Shown here piece after piece: positions 26,055 through 32,894 of a DNA stretch of 40,765 nt. Origin of the DNA: Gemmatimonadota bacterium (lineage in GTDB: Bacteria > Gemmatimonadota > Gemmatimonadetes > Gemmatimonadales > Gemmatimonadaceae). The number at the start of each line of letters is the position of its first letter. Within the stretch, counting starts at the first letter, position 1. The notes beneath the pieces are model-generated. The model was not told where the DNA came from, searched no databases, and worked only from the letters and a program-made list of their open reading frames with translations. A program made the position numbers and the translations under genes. Where the stretch lies: contig QHUA01000153.1 of the NCBI GenBank assembly GCA_003221805.1, positions 1 to 40,765 on the forward strand, read 5' to 3'.

Positions 26055-26897
26055 ATGAAACAGCGTTCCAATATTCGCCCACTTGCTGGGACGCGTGCCG
26101 TTATCCGCGCGATCACCGTGCTCAAAGCGCTCGGTCGATCAACGAACGCCTATGGCGTGACCGAGCTTGGAGCCGCGACCGGCCTCAGCAAGGCAACCGT
26201 CTTTCGCCTGCTCGGTGCTCTGGAAAATGAGGGCATGGTCGCGCGTGATGGGTCGAGCGGCACATACCGACTCGGTCCACAGATAATTTCACTCGGAGCG
26301 TCAGCGCTCTCTACCACCGACTTGCGTACGATCGCGCACGACGAGCTGGTGCGGCTTGCCGACGAGTCCGGCGAGACGGCGACGCTGGAGATTCTCACCG
26401 ATTCGGAGGTCGTGGTTCTCGACGAGGTCCAAGCCCGATTCGTCTTCGGGGCGACCCCGGAGATTGGCCGGAGCTGGCCGGCTCACGCGACTTCGACAGG
26501 AAAACTTCTGCTCGCCCTCACTGAACCGACGCCCCAGCTTCCCCGTCTTCCCAAGCTCGCGTCGCGAACGATTACGACACGCTCGGCGCTTGAGCGCGAG
26601 CTGGCGAGAATCCGGCAGCACGGATACGCCGTCGCCGTCGACGAGCTGGAGCCGGGTCTGGTGGCGATGGCTGCGCCGATCCGGAATCACCTTGGTTACA
26701 TCGTCGCCGCACTCAGTCTCAACGCACCGGGAACGCGTCTCGGCCCGAAGCGCCGCCGGACGGTGATCCCGAAGCTTTGCCGAGCCGCAAATCGTGTGTC
26801 CCGCCGGCTCGGTGCATCGATACGACGTACCCCGAGTCATCGGAGATCGAAAGAAAGGTCGGAGGGGCTGGTGTATAGCCCGGCAAACGCGCAATGA
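26055..26897 (+). CDS. IclR-family transcriptional regulator
   Basis: A 280-residue regulator. The N-terminal winged helix-turn-helix is at about 15-75 (RAITVLKALGRS, VTELGAATGLSKATVFRLLGALENEGMV, GTYRLGP). A linker helix leads to an effector-binding domain (about 85-255) with the ATSTGKLLLAL and VAVDELEPGLVAMAAPI motifs. IclR proteins bind small metabolites and repress or activate neighbouring catabolic genes. The last 25 residues are basic and not part of the usual fold. It lies upstream of and in the same direction as the SusC/SusD locus, so it is a candidate regulator of that locus; the ligand is unknown. A promoter is listed separately. Confidence 0.92.
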   Translation: MKQRSNIRPLAGTRAVIRAITVLKALGRSTNAYGVTELGAATGLSKATVFRLLGALENEGMVARDGSSGTYRLGPQIISLGASALSTTDLRTIAHDELVRLADESGETATLEILTDSEVVVLDEVQARFVFGATPEIGRSWPAHATSTGKLLLALTEPTPQLPRLPKLASRTITTRSALERELARIRQHGYAVAVDELEPGLVAMAAPIRNHLGYIVAALSLNAPGTRLGPKRRRTVIPKLCRAANRVSRRLGASIRRTPSHRRSKERSEGLVYSPANAQ

Positions 26898-26900
26898 TTC

Positions 26901-26928
26901 TTGACGCGCGGCGGTCCGTGATTACATC
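26901..26928 (+). promoter_or_regulatory. Possible promoter for the SusC/SusD frame
   Basis: TTGACG (26901-26906) lies just after the IclR stop with TACATC at 26923-26928 (16-base spacing). It would give a long leader of about 190 bases holding the inverted repeats listed here. The match is weak. Confidence 0.25.
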
Positions 26929-27001
26929 GTCCGCGGAGCCGATTCTCGGCGCTGCGAACATTCATATCTCGATCCTACCACCGGGTAGCGTGTACGACCC
27001 A

Positions 27002-27024
27002 GGAAGCAGCGAAGCTACGCTTCC
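27002..27024 (+). promoter_or_regulatory. Hairpin in the leader between iclR and SusC
   Basis: GGAAGC (27002-27007) pairs with GCTTCC (27019-27024) around an 11-base loop. It is followed by GGCAAACAAAAC, not by a T-run, so it is not a clear terminator. Confidence 0.3.
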
Positions 27025-27069
27025 CGGCAAACAAAACTGAAGAAGCAACCAACATAGCGGGCCTTAATT

Positions 27070-27090
27070 CGGTGACCGCCCAGGTCACCG
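27070..27090 (+). promoter_or_regulatory. 8-bp perfect inverted repeat before the SusC start
   Basis: CGGTGACC gccca GGTCACCG is a perfect 8+5+8 palindrome 38 bases upstream of the ATG at 27128, followed by GTGTTTTC. It could be an operator for the IclR protein upstream or an RNA hairpin in the leader. The sequence alone cannot decide. Confidence 0.5.
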
Positions 27091-27127
27091 GTGTTTTCAA
27101 CCGTTACCGTCAACGGGGAGGGGTGCT

Positions 27128-30100
27128 ATGAGGCGTCTGAAAGTTGGTTGGAGATTGTTGGTGGTCGCGTTGATCGCGGCGGCAATGCCGTATCAGCGAG
27201 CGACCGCGCAAGCAACAGGGGTGTTACGAGGAACGGTCATCGACTCGACCTCGCAACAGCCGGTTGCCGGCGCGCAGGTGCAGTTGGTAGGGACCAATCG
27301 AGCGACCTACACTGACGCGGCCGGTGTCTACCGACTGACCGGCGTTCCAGTGGGTGAGGCAACGGTGCGGGTCCAGCGCATTGGGTTCGCTCAGCGCACT
27401 GTGACCGCTATCGTCACGGATGGTGCGACCGTGGCAGCCGATATCCTATTGCAGCCCGTGATAACGACGTTGTCGCAAGTAGTCGTTGTGGGGTACGGGT
27501 CGAGCAGCCGCGCCGAAGTCACCGGCGCTCTTACTACGGTTTCCGCTGCAGACATCAGGAATACGCCGATCGCGGGCGTCGATGCCGCGTTGCAGGGAAA
27601 GGCCGCGGGTGTGCAGGTCACGCAGAACTCAGGCAACCCGGGGAACGGGATTTCGGTTCGCGTCAGAGGCTCGTCGTCGCTGACCGCCAGCAACCAGCCG
27701 CTCTTCGTAATCGACGGAGCGCCGGTTCAAACCGGCGACTTCTCGCAAGTTGGTTTCGGTGGGCAGGACCTCACCGCCGTGACGAACCTGAATCCCGATG
27801 AAATTGAAACCATCACGATCCTGAAAGACGCCGCTTCGGCAGGCATCTACGGCTCGCGCGCCTCCAACGGCGTCGTGCTGATCACGACGAAGCGCGGCAT
27901 TACTGGCGCTAACCGGATCACATTCAATGGATATACCGGCTGGCAGAAAGCGGAGAAACTGCTGCACATGCTGAGCGGTCCTGAGTACGTCGCATATATG
28001 GCGGAAGGAATGAGGAACGACGGCTACACCGACCAGGATATTGCCGATTTCGGATTCGTCACTGGCGTGAACGACCTGGTCAGCACGAACTGGCAGTCCG
28101 AGGTATATCGGACTGCTCCAGTGCGCGACGCGAGTATGGGACTGAGTGGCGGCAGCGGGCGGGTCAGGTATTATGTGTCCGGCTCGTACTTCGGGCAGGA
28201 CGGTGTTCAGATCGCTTCCGCGTACAATCGGTCGAGCGGACGGGCGAATATCGACATAGACGCCACCGAGCGCCTCTCGCTCAAGGCTTCCCTAGCGCTG
28301 GCGCGTGAGGTGAACTACCGGGTCGTCAGCGACAATACGATCAGCGGAATCGGTCCCAACGCGATCGCTGATCAGCCCAACATTCCGGTCCGCGATGCCA
28401 GCGGCGCGTTCAGCACCAACAACTCGAGCGGAATCCAGTACACGAATCCGCTGGCAATCGCCGCGTTCGACTACAACCCTACGACGACCAACAGAGCGCT
28501 GGCCAACGTCGAAGCGAATTACAACGTTGCCAACTGGGTGCAGTTCACGGGCCGAGTGGCGGGCGACCAGCTCGTGCTTCACGAACGAATCTGGGGATCG
28601 CCCCTCGTCGTCGATGAGAACGGCGGTGTCGGCGGCGATGCATCGTCGGGGTACAACTCCGGCAACAGGTTCGTCGGCGAAGGATTTTTCACACTGACGC
28701 CGTGGGCGGGAAGCAGCAGAGGAACTCTGACCGCCATCATCGGCGCCAGCACCGAGCGCAACAAGACCGAGCTCAATTTCGTCGAGGGGACGGGCTTCAG
28801 CAGCCCTGCGCTGCACGACGTCGGCAGCGCGACGACGGTAACCACTTACGACGGGAGCCGCGGCGCCAACAACCTGGTGTCCTATTTCGCCAGAGCGAAT
28901 TTCAATTTCGCGGACCGTTATCTAGCCAGCGCCAGCTTCCGCGCGGATGGCTCGTCCAGGTTCGGACCGAACAACCGCTACGGCGTGTTCCCGGCCGTTT
29001 CGCTGGGATGGGTCATCACCCAGGAGCCGATGCTCAGCGCTCTCTCCAGGCTGGGCTCTATCAAGCTGCGTGGAAGTCTCGGGACGACTGGCAACCAGGG
29101 TATTGGCAATCAGACTTACCGCGCCACGTTCGGATCGGCCAACTACGGGAAGGCCGGCGGAATCTCACCGAACAACTTTGGCAATCCCGATTTGAAGTGG
29201 GAGCAGACGAGAGAAGTCGACGCCGGGTTTGACTGGACGATGTTCGATGGGCGGATCGGTCTGGTTGGTGACTACTACAAGAAGAAAACCTCGAACCTTC
29301 TCGTTTCGCGGCCAATCAGCGCCACCAGCGGGTTCACGAGTTTCACTGACAACATTGGTAACATCGAGAACCGCGGGATCGAGCTGGAGGTGACCGCGGA
29401 AAACTTCCGCAGCAGGGGCCCAGGGAGCTTCTCGTGGCAGACTATCTATAACTACTCGCACAACCGGAACCGCGTAACGGCACTCTACCAGAACCAGCCC
29501 ATTTACAGCGGAATCGACAACATCAACTCGGTGCGAGTCGGTGAACCGATCGGCGCGTTTTACGCGCTGCGCTTCCTGGGGGTTGATCCACAGACGGGCG
29601 ACGCGATGTACCTCGACGCGAACGGCGATGGTGCCATCAACGCCGACGATCGTGTCGTGGTTGGAAATCCGCAGCCGACATCATGGGGCGGCGTGACCAA
29701 CACCTTCACGTATGGACCCTTCGATCTGCGGGCTGCGGTTCTGTTCAGCGGTGGCAATCAGATTTACAACGGCGTCCGTCAGTTCTCGGACGACGGCGGT
29801 TACTTCTACGACAACAAGTTCGCGTACGTGCTGCGGCGGTGGCAGAAGCCGGGCGACATCACCGACGAGCCAAGAGCGAGCTTCGACGGAACTTCACAGG
29901 CGACCCTGAACTCTTCGCGCTTGCTCGAGCCGGGTAACTACACCCGACTTCAGGAAGTGACTCTCGGAATGAAGGTGCCGAAGGGTATGGCTCGCTTCGC
30001 GGGAATGGACAACACCCGCATCTACGTGAGTGGCAGAAACCTTCACACCTGGACTCACTTCAAGGGATACAATCCTGATGTGAACAGCAACGGGTCGGGT

Positions 30101-31543
30101 TCGAATGTCTCGCTCGGCGAGGAGTTTTACTCCTATCCGTTGGCGCGGACGTGGATGGTCGGCCTGACCACGATCAATAAACGCTTCCTGGTTATGGCGG
30201 GACTCGGATTGAGTGCGTGCAGTGGCGTGCTCGATGTACCGCCGACGAGCTCGGTCTCGTCCGAGGCAGCGATTGCCGATGCCGTCGGAGCACGCGCCGC
30301 GCTGGCGGGTGCCTACTCGGGCCTCCAGCAAAGCGGGCTGTACGGACACACGATCGTTGATTGGACCGAAGTCCTGTCTGACAACATGCGTCACGTCGGA
30401 ACTTTCGATAACTACGCGGACGCTGACAATCATTTATTGCGCTCGGACAACTTTTCAGTAGCCTCGGTCTGGAACGCGTCTTACAACGAGATCAATCGCG
30501 TCAATCAGATCATCGCCAAAGTTCCCAACGTTGCGGATTTATCCGCCGCCGAGAAGAGCGAGATACTTGGCGAGGCGTATTTTCTGCGCGCTCTGATTTA
30601 CCACGATCTCGTGAAGCTGTGGGCGGGCGCGCCGCTCCAATTGGCGCCGGTCGCGAGCGCTGCTGACGCCAACCAGATTGCACGTTCGACGGTTGCCGAA
30701 ACCTATACCCAGATCCTCGCCGATCTGGCGCAGGCGAAGCAGCTGATAACCGCCGGTCGTTCGCAGACGCGGCAAGCTTCGCTCGGTGCGGTTTCAGCAA
30801 TCGAGGCTCGCGTCAGACTCTACCAGCAGGACTGGACTGGCGCCGAGGCCGCCGCGGCAACGGTCGAAGGCATGGGGTATTCGCTGGCGCCAAACTTCAG
30901 CGATCTATTCGATGCAACCGGAAACAATACGCCGGAAGACATCTTTAGAGTGACGTTCACGCCAACGCAAGCGCAGTCGGTGAGCTTCTACTACTTGCCG
31001 AAGGCGCTCGGTGGACGTTACGAGGAGGCCCCAACGACTGCTGTCGATAACGCGACCGGCACAACCGGAATTATCGCAGCATTCGACCCGGCGTCGGGCG
31101 GAAACATCGCCAACTATCATCCGACGGACACGCGAGGGATCTGGTCGATCTCGCGCTCGGGAACGCGGACATACGCGGCAAAATTCAGGAATCCGACAGG
31201 CGACGAAGATCTGCACGTGATTCGTCTCGGCGAAGTCATTCTCATTCGCGCCGAGGCACTGGCGCAGCTGAATCGTCTACCGGAGGCCGTCACCGAGTAC
31301 AATCGGCTGCGGGTCCGTGCTGGTCTGGCCGTTGATCCCACCACCGGGCTCACACAGGCGGGAGTATTGGCCGCAATTGCCCGTGAACGACGGCTCGAGC
31401 TGGCGTTCGAAGGCGATCGTTGGCCGGACATGGTCCGCACCGGTACGGGTCTGGCAGCGCTGCCTCCGGCGCAAACGCTGCTTCCGATTCCGCAGGCTGA
31501 GCTCGACGTGGCGCCGAATCTGACGCAGAATCCTGGATATTGA
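27128..31543 (+). CDS. SusC-like TonB-dependent transporter fused in frame to SusD-like lipoprotein
   Basis: One frame of 1471 codons. Residues 1-28 are a signal peptide ending TAQA. About 32-115 is a carboxypeptidase-regulatory-like beta-sandwich (VLRGTVIDSTSQQPVAGAQV). The TonB plug carries VVVVGYGSSSRAEVTGALT, LQGKAAGVQVTQNSG and the hallmark GSRASNGVVLITTKRG. The barrel then runs to about residue 1015 (RTWMVGLTTI). Without any stop, NKRFLVMAGLGLSAC follows at 1017-1031, a lipoprotein signal with lipobox, and then a complete SusD fold ending in LLPIPQ and NLTQNPGY. SusC/SusD pairs import oligosaccharides or peptides across the outer membrane and are normally two genes. A GGGGAGGGG ribosome site precedes the ATG. 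The fusion may be natural, a mutation or an assembly error. A SusD internal start at ATG 30155 is possible. Confidence 0.88.
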   Translation: MRRLKVGWRLLVVALIAAAMPYQRATAQATGVLRGTVIDSTSQQPVAGAQVQLVGTNRATYTDAAGVYRLTGVPVGEATVRVQRIGFAQRTVTAIVTDGATVAADILLQPVITTLSQVVVVGYGSSSRAEVTGALTTVSAADIRNTPIAGVDAALQGKAAGVQVTQNSGNPGNGISVRVRGSSSLTASNQPLFVIDGAPVQTGDFSQVGFGGQDLTAVTNLNPDEIETITILKDAASAGIYGSRASNGVVLITTKRGITGANRITFNGYTGWQKAEKLLHMLSGPEYVAYMAEGMRNDGYTDQDIADFGFVTGVNDLVSTNWQSEVYRTAPVRDASMGLSGGSGRVRYYVSGSYFGQDGVQIASAYNRSSGRANIDIDATERLSLKASLALAREVNYRVVSDNTISGIGPNAIADQPNIPVRDASGAFSTNNSSGIQYTNPLAIAAFDYNPTTTNRALANVEANYNVANWVQFTGRVAGDQLVLHERIWGSPLVVDENGGVGGDASSGYNSGNRFVGEGFFTLTPWAGSSRGTLTAIIGASTERNKTELNFVEGTGFSSPALHDVGSATTVTTYDGSRGANNLVSYFARANFNFADRYLASASFRADGSSRFGPNNRYGVFPAVSLGWVITQEPMLSALSRLGSIKLRGSLGTTGNQGIGNQTYRATFGSANYGKAGGISPNNFGNPDLKWEQTREVDAGFDWTMFDGRIGLVGDYYKKKTSNLLVSRPISATSGFTSFTDNIGNIENRGIELEVTAENFRSRGPGSFSWQTIYNYSHNRNRVTALYQNQPIYSGIDNINSVRVGEPIGAFYALRFLGVDPQTGDAMYLDANGDGAINADDRVVVGNPQPTSWGGVTNTFTYGPFDLRAAVLFSGGNQIYNGVRQFSDDGGYFYDNKFAYVLRRWQKPGDITDEPRASFDGTSQATLNSSRLLEPGNYTRLQEVTLGMKVPKGMARFAGMDNTRIYVSGRNLHTWTHFKGYNPDVNSNGSGSNVSLGEEFYSYPLARTWMVGLTTINKRFLVMAGLGLSACSGVLDVPPTSSVSSEAAIADAVGARAALAGAYSGLQQSGLYGHTIVDWTEVLSDNMRHVGTFDNYADADNHLLRSDNFSVASVWNASYNEINRVNQIIAKVPNVADLSAAEKSEILGEAYFLRALIYHDLVKLWAGAPLQLAPVASAADANQIARSTVAETYTQILADLAQAKQLITAGRSQTRQASLGAVSAIEARVRLYQQDWTGAEAAAATVEGMGYSLAPNFSDLFDATGNNTPEDIFRVTFTPTQAQSVSFYYLPKALGGRYEEAPTTAVDNATGTTGIIAAFDPASGGNIANYHPTDTRGIWSISRSGTRTYAAKFRNPTGDEDLHVIRLGEVILIRAEALAQLNRLPEAVTEYNRLRVRAGLAVDPTTGLTQAGVLAAIARERRLELAFEGDRWPDMVRTGTGLAALPPAQTLLPIPQAELDVAPNLTQNPGY
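30155..31543 (+). other. SusD/RagB-like half with its own lipoprotein signal inside the fused frame
   Basis: The ATG at 30155 (codon 1010) gives MVGLTTINKRFLVMAGLGLSAC, a usable lipoprotein signal with K and R, a hydrophobic core and lipobox LSAC; the Cys codon is 30218-30220. Downstream sequence is a normal SusD: an N-terminal AIADAVGARAALAGAYSGL segment, helical TPR repeats, ARVRLYQQDW, LIRAEALAQLNRLPEAVTEYNRLRVRAGL, RERRLELAFEGDRWPDMVRTG and the conserved end. Length from the Cys is 441 residues, within the family range. No strong ribosome site precedes 30155. Reading this as a separate protein is inference. Confidence 0.6.
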
Positions 31544-31557
31544 TTCTCAGTAACCAA

Positions 31558-31592
31558 AAAACGGCACGTCTCGATCAGAGGCGTGCCGTTTT
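31558..31592 (+). terminator. Bidirectional terminator between SusC/SusD and the M20 gene
   Basis: A 15-base stem (31558-31572 with 31578-31592, one mismatch) and the 5-base loop GATCA. The stem ends AAAACGG and CCGTTTT, giving runs of T on both strands (TTTT on plus, TTTTTT on minus). It lies between two convergent genes. Confidence 0.85.
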
Positions 31593-31612
31593 CATTTTGC
31601 GGTTGCGCTTCC

Positions 31613-32894
31613 TCAGCGTTGATGGGTCAGGCGGTAGATGAGCAACGCCGCGCGCTCGGTCGCCGGTCCTATCGATCGTAGATCCACTCGTTCATCGGGT
31701 GTGTGCGATCCTTTTCCCTTGACGCCGAGTCCATCGAGCGCGTCCAGGTAATCGGATACGTAGGAGATGTCGCCACCACCACGGCGCCCCGGATCCAGAG
31801 CCTCCACTGGTCCCTGCCCAAGAGCGCGACTCACCGAGTCCTCGAGCGCAAGCAACGCCAGGTTACCCTTCGTCGGAGGCATCGCCGGGTTGCCGTCCTC
31901 AAACGTTATAGACGCAGTCGTGCCAGGCAGGTGATCGGCGACGATCGCGCGCATTGCTTCTCTCGCCTTGAGCAGCTGATCCTGGGAGATGAATCGGAGA
32001 TCGCCGCGTGCATAGACCTTGGGGGCGATGATGTTGTCTTTACCGGCGGCAGTTCCAGAGATTTTGCTCGAATCGTAGGTGACGTCAGTCCCCCCGACGA
32101 TCACCGCCGGATTGAACGTAAGGTACTGCTGGTTGGAGAGGTGCTCCCGAAAAGTGTTGAGAATGCGAGCAGCTTCGTAGATCGCTCCGTAGCTGGATCC
32201 GGGAGAGAAGATTCCAGAGGAGTGCGCCTGGCGGCCGGTCACGACAAGCTGCCAGCCGCTGAAGCCACGACGAGCAATCGTTCCCTTGCCCGCGTCCTCT
32301 TCGAATGCCAGGGCGACGTCGCTGCGTTTGGCGACATCGATCAGCGGTTGGCGTGACACGAGGTGCAACGGACCGGCATCCTCCTCGTCGCCCATGAACG
32401 CAACCACGATCCGCGTGCCGTCGAGCGCACCAATGCTTTCCAGTGCTTTGAGCGCGTAAAGGACGACGACGTCCCCGCCTTTCATGTCCGCGCTGCCCGC
32501 ACCGGCAGCGAGCGTGTCCAGCCGAACGAATCTCTCGCTCTCGCCCTCGAAGACAGTGTCCAGGTGTCCGATCAACAGGAGTCGTTTGCCGCGGCCTCCC
32601 TTCCTTTCGGCGAACAGGTGACCGGCGCGACCGACAGCATCAGGCAACGCGATCCACTGTGTCTGGAAACCAAGTGCTGCTGATATTGACCGCCCTTTCC
32701 AGAAAGGCGATCTGCTCCGCTTCGTGCTTACGCACGTAATCGCGGATCTTTTGCTCCGTCGTGGATAGCGCCTGAGCACCCGAGGTCTGGCCGAAGATTG
32801 GCGGGGAACCATAAGACAGACACGTCGCGCAAAGGATCGCGGTGATGCGAACGAGACGCGCACAGGTGACGCGTGACTTGGAGAGGGGTGTCAT
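31613..32894 (-). pseudogene. Exported M20-family peptidase, split by a frameshift
   Basis: The C-terminal ~360 codons read as an M20 zinc peptidase: GHLDTVFE (metal His/Asp), GSADMKGGD, FMGDEEDAG (catalytic Glu), FEEDAGKG and the terminal GSHTPDERVD. The preceding codons in that frame are nonsense. From ATG 32894 another frame encodes a signal-like N-terminus (LVRITAILCATCLSYG) and TEQKIRDYVRKHEAEQIAFLERAVNIS, the normal beginning of the same family, and ends at 32640. The two join near 32675, where about 20 expected residues (after VNISS, before ALGFQTQW) are missing, so a small out-of-frame deletion is likely. All visible active-site residues survive. It faces the SusC/SusD frame and shares its terminator. 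A sequencing or assembly indel would look identical. Confidence 0.75.

Follow-up and report, generated by a model that had tools for sequence, protein, structure and literature searches.

A SusC–SusD gene pair probably joined into one reading frame by a recent in-frame deletion

The reading frame at positions 27128–31543 of the window, by which we mean the whole 40,765-nucleotide stretch of DNA analysed here, is probably an ordinary SusC–SusD pair in which one recent in-frame deletion has caused two genes to be read as one; this reading is built on comparison of the sequence with those of its relatives. The frame lies on the forward strand and has 1471 codons with no stop between the SusC and SusD parts, corresponding to a protein of 157 kDa. 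Pfam profiles searched with hmmscan identify CarbopepD_reg_2, Plug (residues 129–249), TonB_dep_Rec_b-barrel (428–791), SusD-like_3 (1056–1231) and SusD_RagB (1340–1471) in this single protein. The three SusC/RagA domains (PF13715, PF07715 and PF00593) all score above cut-off, and the SusD/RagB fold is indicated both by its two Pfam domains and by SusD chains matched with Foldseek; because the SusC and SusD domains are both strong profile matches, their joint presence is not due to chance. The original prediction of one continuous SusC–SusD frame is thus borne out, with SusC extending to about codon 1014, and the lipobox Cys that it placed at codon 1031 is found there (30218–30220). The parts of the frame are as follows.

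27128–30169, + strand: SusC part, codons 1–1014, with signal peptide, carboxypeptidase-like domain, plug and beta-barrel; the last strand is ARTWMVGLT (codons 1006–1014)
30170–30220, + strand: what is left of the lipoprotein signal of SusD, 17 codons (1015–1031) ending at the lipobox Cys, from an alignment made by eye
30218–31543, + strand: SusD part, codons 1031–1471 and the stop, from Pfam and the translation of the frame

Codons 1015–1031 read TINKRFLVMAGLGLSAC. The last barrel strand is therefore not terminal, and in place of an aromatic residue and a stop, 457 residues follow ARTWMVGLT.

The nearest relative of the frame is a locus in the same genus (L030, contig C128 of genome G017), to which residues 1–1364 are matched at 72% identity up to the end of the L030 contig. 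The two are alike in frame and in identity over these 1364 residues, but the L030 alignment path contains one TAG in the same frame, together with a spacer and a separate SusD start, and its SusC and SusD are two ordinary genes. SusC of L030 ends in YPLARTWMVGVTGEW followed by the stop (VGVTGEW-TAG), and in-frame ATGs lie 9 and 42 nt past it; the true start of the L030 SusD is not certain because there are two such ATGs, the second of which gives a standard 17-residue signal, MRNKSLLVLLGAALTAC. When the two loci are aligned, the window is shorter by 54 nt exactly at the SusC–SusD junction, a net difference only, since L030 is just 72% identical and does not give the length of the ancestral spacer. 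The position of the putative deletion is as follows.

30165–30172, + strand: putative deletion junction; compared with L030, the SusC end, the stop, a 42-nt spacer and the SusD start codon are absent (54 nt), the break not being fixed to the base

In the alignment made by eye, the 17 window codons leading to the lipobox Cys pair one-to-one with the signal that begins at the second ATG of L030, and the position of that ATG is occupied by ACG (30170–30172, codon 1015). The original prediction had ATC standing at the expected SusD start; in this alignment ATC is instead the next codon. The 54 nt can be counted as 1 + 9 + 42 + 2, with the loss running from the final base of the codon three positions ahead of the L030 stop to the first two bases of the second ATG. 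MAFFT placed the gap a few bases upstream of the by-eye position and a single deletion suffices either way, the relative being too distant for the exact break to be fixed. The relatives examined have a stop, a spacer and a separate SusD start, and comparison with them upholds the earlier suspicion that the terminal aromatic residue and stop of SusC, as well as the start of SusD, have been lost from the window by deletion. More distant loci from Gemmatimonadota genomes (L059, L060 and L067), the closest named relatives, are 45–46% identical to the window in the best segment and would place it in Gemmatimonadota.

Such a deletion would have taken the last SusC residues including the terminal aromatic residue, the stop, the spacer and the SusD start, amounting to 54 nt relative to L030. 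Ribosomes engaged on SusC would then run on to give a polypeptide of about 157 kDa, whose barrel end would be masked and whose SusD would be periplasmic, and translation from the ATG at 30155 may still supply some SusD as a protein of its own.

Among the matches listed in every set examined, the window has the only stop-free SusC–SusD junction, and among the junctions listed the fusion is confined to this one lineage. Loci L001–L104, which partly overlap, contain 116 ORF pieces matching the SusC profile and 93 matching the SusD profile; the two ORFs that match both are copies of the window, and no other ORF with both domains was found in these loci or in the further loci fetched. The stop is kept in 64/64 other distinct SusC–SusD junctions of L001–L104, ten of which are in the window's own genome, with 60–190 nt separating the stop from the start of the SusD match; SusC has F, W or Y as its last residue before the stop in 57 of the 64. 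Each of 11 orthologues from the family (L120–L130) has a SusC ending in W or F and a stop, with a separate ATG before the SusD match. Matches were obtained in 17 of 19 genomes of the genus and, the window excepted, the SusD matches listed are in frames no longer than 646 aa.

For the broader surveys we used a junction profile built from the window together with eight relatives that had been read through the stop; those relatives match by construction. In the survey of the window's own phylum (395 genomes, up to four candidates scored in each, 147 with a match), 85 of the best 150 rows span both halves in the same frame, and 84 of these 85 contain a stop, the exception being the window. A survey of 395 genomes of Bacteroidota, the phylum of the Chitinophaga genome behind L062 (G402), gave matches at E ≤1e-80 in 109 genomes, and the best 150 rows all span both halves (150/150) and all contain at least one stop (150/150). 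Both tables tell whether a stop is present and not where it lies within the match; its place was read for L105–L119, and apart from L108, which is the window, all of these have one ORF for SusC and another for SusD. In eight further Bacteroidota genomes the stop-free matches listed were one-sided, as judged by reading rather than by count. Within the family, 33 of 179 genomes (three candidates scored per genome) had a match at E ≤1e-170, and five of the 34 rows listed span both halves and four of the five contain a stop. Since the survey figures rest on the best rows listed, rare fusions in distant pairs could escape. We found no natural SusC–SusD fusion in the open-licence literature that was accessible to us, and one may be in print elsewhere; the accessible portions of PMC6499787, PMC7618045, PMC12611786, PMC5849685, PMC1790865 and PMC4319957 mention none.

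Long frames in four genomes (G073, G104, G178 and G220) were considered as fusions and rejected, reading of the ORFs giving a separate SusC and SusD in each. The extra length came from sequence upstream of SusC, from sequence upstream of SusD that overlaps SusC in a different frame or, in G073, from reading across a stop. In three relatives (L128/L131, L130 and L132), SusD lies inside open frames 834–1568 aa long whose overlap with SusC is out of frame with it, and these very long SusD frames are a trap for automatic gene calling.

The presence of the spacer in the relatives read and the lack of another stop-free junction among the matches listed would also be expected of an assembly or library artefact, in which about 54 bases are skipped in the contig and the stop of SusC, the spacer and the start of SusD are all normal in the organism; the source genome is, moreover, a 3.14-Mb draft in 247 contigs that is 92% complete. 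However, the gap in the window is single, clean and in frame, each half is otherwise intact, ten other junctions of the same genome are normal, and the assembled junction contains no repeat able to cause a wrong join. Within some 200 bases of the junction there is no direct repeat of 9 bases or longer in the sequence as assembled, as distinct from its undeleted ancestor, and the 12-, 14- and 16-mers that span the junction do not recur in the window or in loci L002–L029 of its own genome. In short-read graph assembly the words across a junction must exist in the reads, a consideration that applies here only if such a method was used. Because the assembled junction is free of repeats that would easily mislead an assembler, a real deletion is favoured; we regard the artefact as unlikely and favour a deletion in the organism over one in the assembly, as seen in one assembled contig. 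For what is one SusCD pair among several in the genome, a recent mutation appears most likely and an assembly fault less likely.

To compare evolutionary rates we used a tree of the window, L030, L031, L059, L060, L067, L036 and L037, with 996 columns for SusC and 306 for SusD, the latter being so few because L030 is cut by the end of its contig. Branch lengths for the window and L030 are 0.179 and 0.173 respectively in SusC, and 0.190 and 0.185 in SusD, and Tajima-type relative-rate tests with four outgroups gave no significant difference between the two (p 0.41 to 0.85). Third codon positions diverge far more than first and second positions, and dN/dS is about 0.1, which is a rough guide only because dS is near saturation. 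Decay of one half was rejected, since neither evolves at a faster rate. Both halves have thus been constrained over most of the period since the two lineages diverged, and either the deletion is recent or the parts are still functional, and the rate test cannot separate a recent event from continued function of both halves. The equal rates would fit a recent event.

Evolution of both halves at the rate of the unfused relative would also fit a maintained working fusion, in which one polypeptide provides barrel and lid, either by cleavage at the old signal or with the lid tethered. An open, intact frame is likewise expected of a selected fusion, and the core of the old signal and its Cys are kept. 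In an AlphaFold model of codons 272–1471 the last SusC strand is preserved (model residues 735–743, codons 1006–1014) and is followed by a low-confidence stretch (codons 1017–1044, pLDDT under 50), features that again speak for a working fusion. With a pTM of 0.60 and a linker below pLDDT 50, the model was rejected as a guide to the position of SusD relative to the barrel. Foldseek matched both SusC and SusD chains to the model; the closest solved chains for the SusC half are 8aa4 (dextran utilisome), 5t3r and 6zlu (levan system) and 6sli (RagA), and the SusD half matches 9sje_B, 3kez and 6gcz, with 0/33 matched chain sequences covering both halves in the reported best stretch. The two halves therefore resemble SusCD/RagAB transporters by both Pfam and solved chains, but the window differs from these systems in having one frame for both partners.

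When a barrel has an even strand number and its plug is periplasmic, its C-terminus lies in the periplasm. A SusC of 22 strands has been described (PMC12611786), as has the capping of the extracellular face by SusD (PMC7618045). With the C-terminus of SusC periplasmic and SusD extracellular, a direct fusion would put SusD on the wrong side of the membrane and without its lipid, and because the barrel end would be masked and SusD kept periplasmic, the literal fusion is unlikely to function as a transporter with a lid. The BamA-pairing C-terminal strand no longer ends the protein, there is only a short linker, and the fusion occurs in one genome only among the matches listed; we consider a maintained working fusion very unlikely. 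One form of it, a single-chain SusCD in which the old signal FLVMAGLGLSA (1020–1030), after a turn INKR (1016–1019), crosses the outer membrane beside the barrel in a strand-like manner and carries a tethered SusD lid to the surface, strikes us as extremely far-fetched.

In-frame gene fusion by loss of an intercistronic stop is a general class of mutation. The present case is like other members of the class in that the genes are adjacent and co-directional and an in-frame stop and start are lost, but differs in that SusD needs lipidation and export to the other side of the membrane. Because SusD must be lipidated and exported across, the fusion is not expected to be neutral, and transport is rather likely to be impaired. 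The original prediction had offered four explanations, namely an internal SusD start, cleavage of the polypeptide, a fusion mutation and a deletion in the assembly; comparison with relatives supports a deletion, an internal start is possible with its site at background level, and nothing was found in favour of an evolved, cleaved polyprotein.

Two in-frame codons are candidates for an internal start.

30155–30157, + strand: ATG, codon 1010, the likeliest internal start leaving a usable SusD signal, with 22 residues through the lipobox Cys
30140–30142, + strand: TTG, a weak alternative start with GAGGAG 15 nt before it (30119–30142, within the SusC coding sequence), −8.3 kcal/mol and poor spacing

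The ATG at 30155 is in frame, as had been proposed. Its duplex energy with the anti-Shine-Dalgarno sequence is −3.2 kcal/mol, compared with a background median of −2.4 at random positions; this equals the value for the second ATG of the L030 SusD (−3.2) and is weaker than that for the first (−5.5). The median is −2.8 for the ribosome sites of 13 window genes and −3.2 for ATGs inside SusC (n=11), and the start of SusC itself has −11.5. The ribosome site of ATG 30155 is no better than background, and hence gives no positive evidence for initiation. Stronger matches are predicted for the near-cognate codons CTG 30164 (−6.1) and ATC 30173 (−6.2); near-cognate codons are poor translation starts. 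SusD has kept its signal core and Cys and lost the homologous start codon, with ATG 30155 as a possible start upstream. Initiation there would leave a plausible lipoprotein signal, with Lys-Arg in the n-region, the hydrophobic stretch FLVMAGLGLSA and the Cys; the hydrophobic core is the weakest of nine (2.03 versus 2.40–3.04 for seven SusD signals and that of SusC). Any working SusD is more likely to come from an internal start, such as ATG 30155, than from the literal fusion, and a useful rescue by this route is conceivable if doubtful.

If ATG 30155 or a near-cognate codon served as an efficient start for SusD, and the read-through of SusC were harmless, the two would amount to overlapping genes and the pair would be near-normal. 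The in-frame ATG with its plausible signal is consistent with this, as are its energy, which matches that of the second L030 ATG and is near the median of the 13 window genes, and the stronger ribosome matches predicted for CTG 30164, ATC 30173 and TTG 30140. However, the same energy is near those of random positions and of ATGs inside SusC, SusC would still be without its terminus, and the hydrophobic core of the SusD signal scores below those of the eight other signals, and we regard this arrangement as highly improbable. Should the favoured deletion be real, the frame is a natural test of the tolerance of SusC to a C-terminal extension and of whether internal initiation can supply SusD; a working fusion would be an exception to the accepted view of SusCD as a two-protein, two-sided system. 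Annotation of the fused frame as a new protein architecture is not warranted; it is a variant of a known system that has been seen once.

Any link between the fused frame and the genes on either side of it, both from the ORF scan, would be putative.

26055–26897, + strand: IclR-family regulator upstream of the SusCD frame
31613–32863, − strand: M20 family peptidase gene, convergent with the fused frame

No glycan-degrading gene is present among the ten neighbours scanned, so the substrate of this SusCD may not be a glycan, and no gene hinting at a substrate is common to these ten neighbours and the ten ORFs around L059 and L067. A scan of 26850–31700 detected no promoter-like site, its count of terminator-like sites (5) was at the level of shuffled sequence (4.3), and an Rfam search of the whole window gave nothing at gathering scores. 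Between the end of the IclR gene and the start of SusC there is a terminator-like hairpin of 9 pairs with a T run (27069–27091), which is probably the IclR terminator or a leader element.
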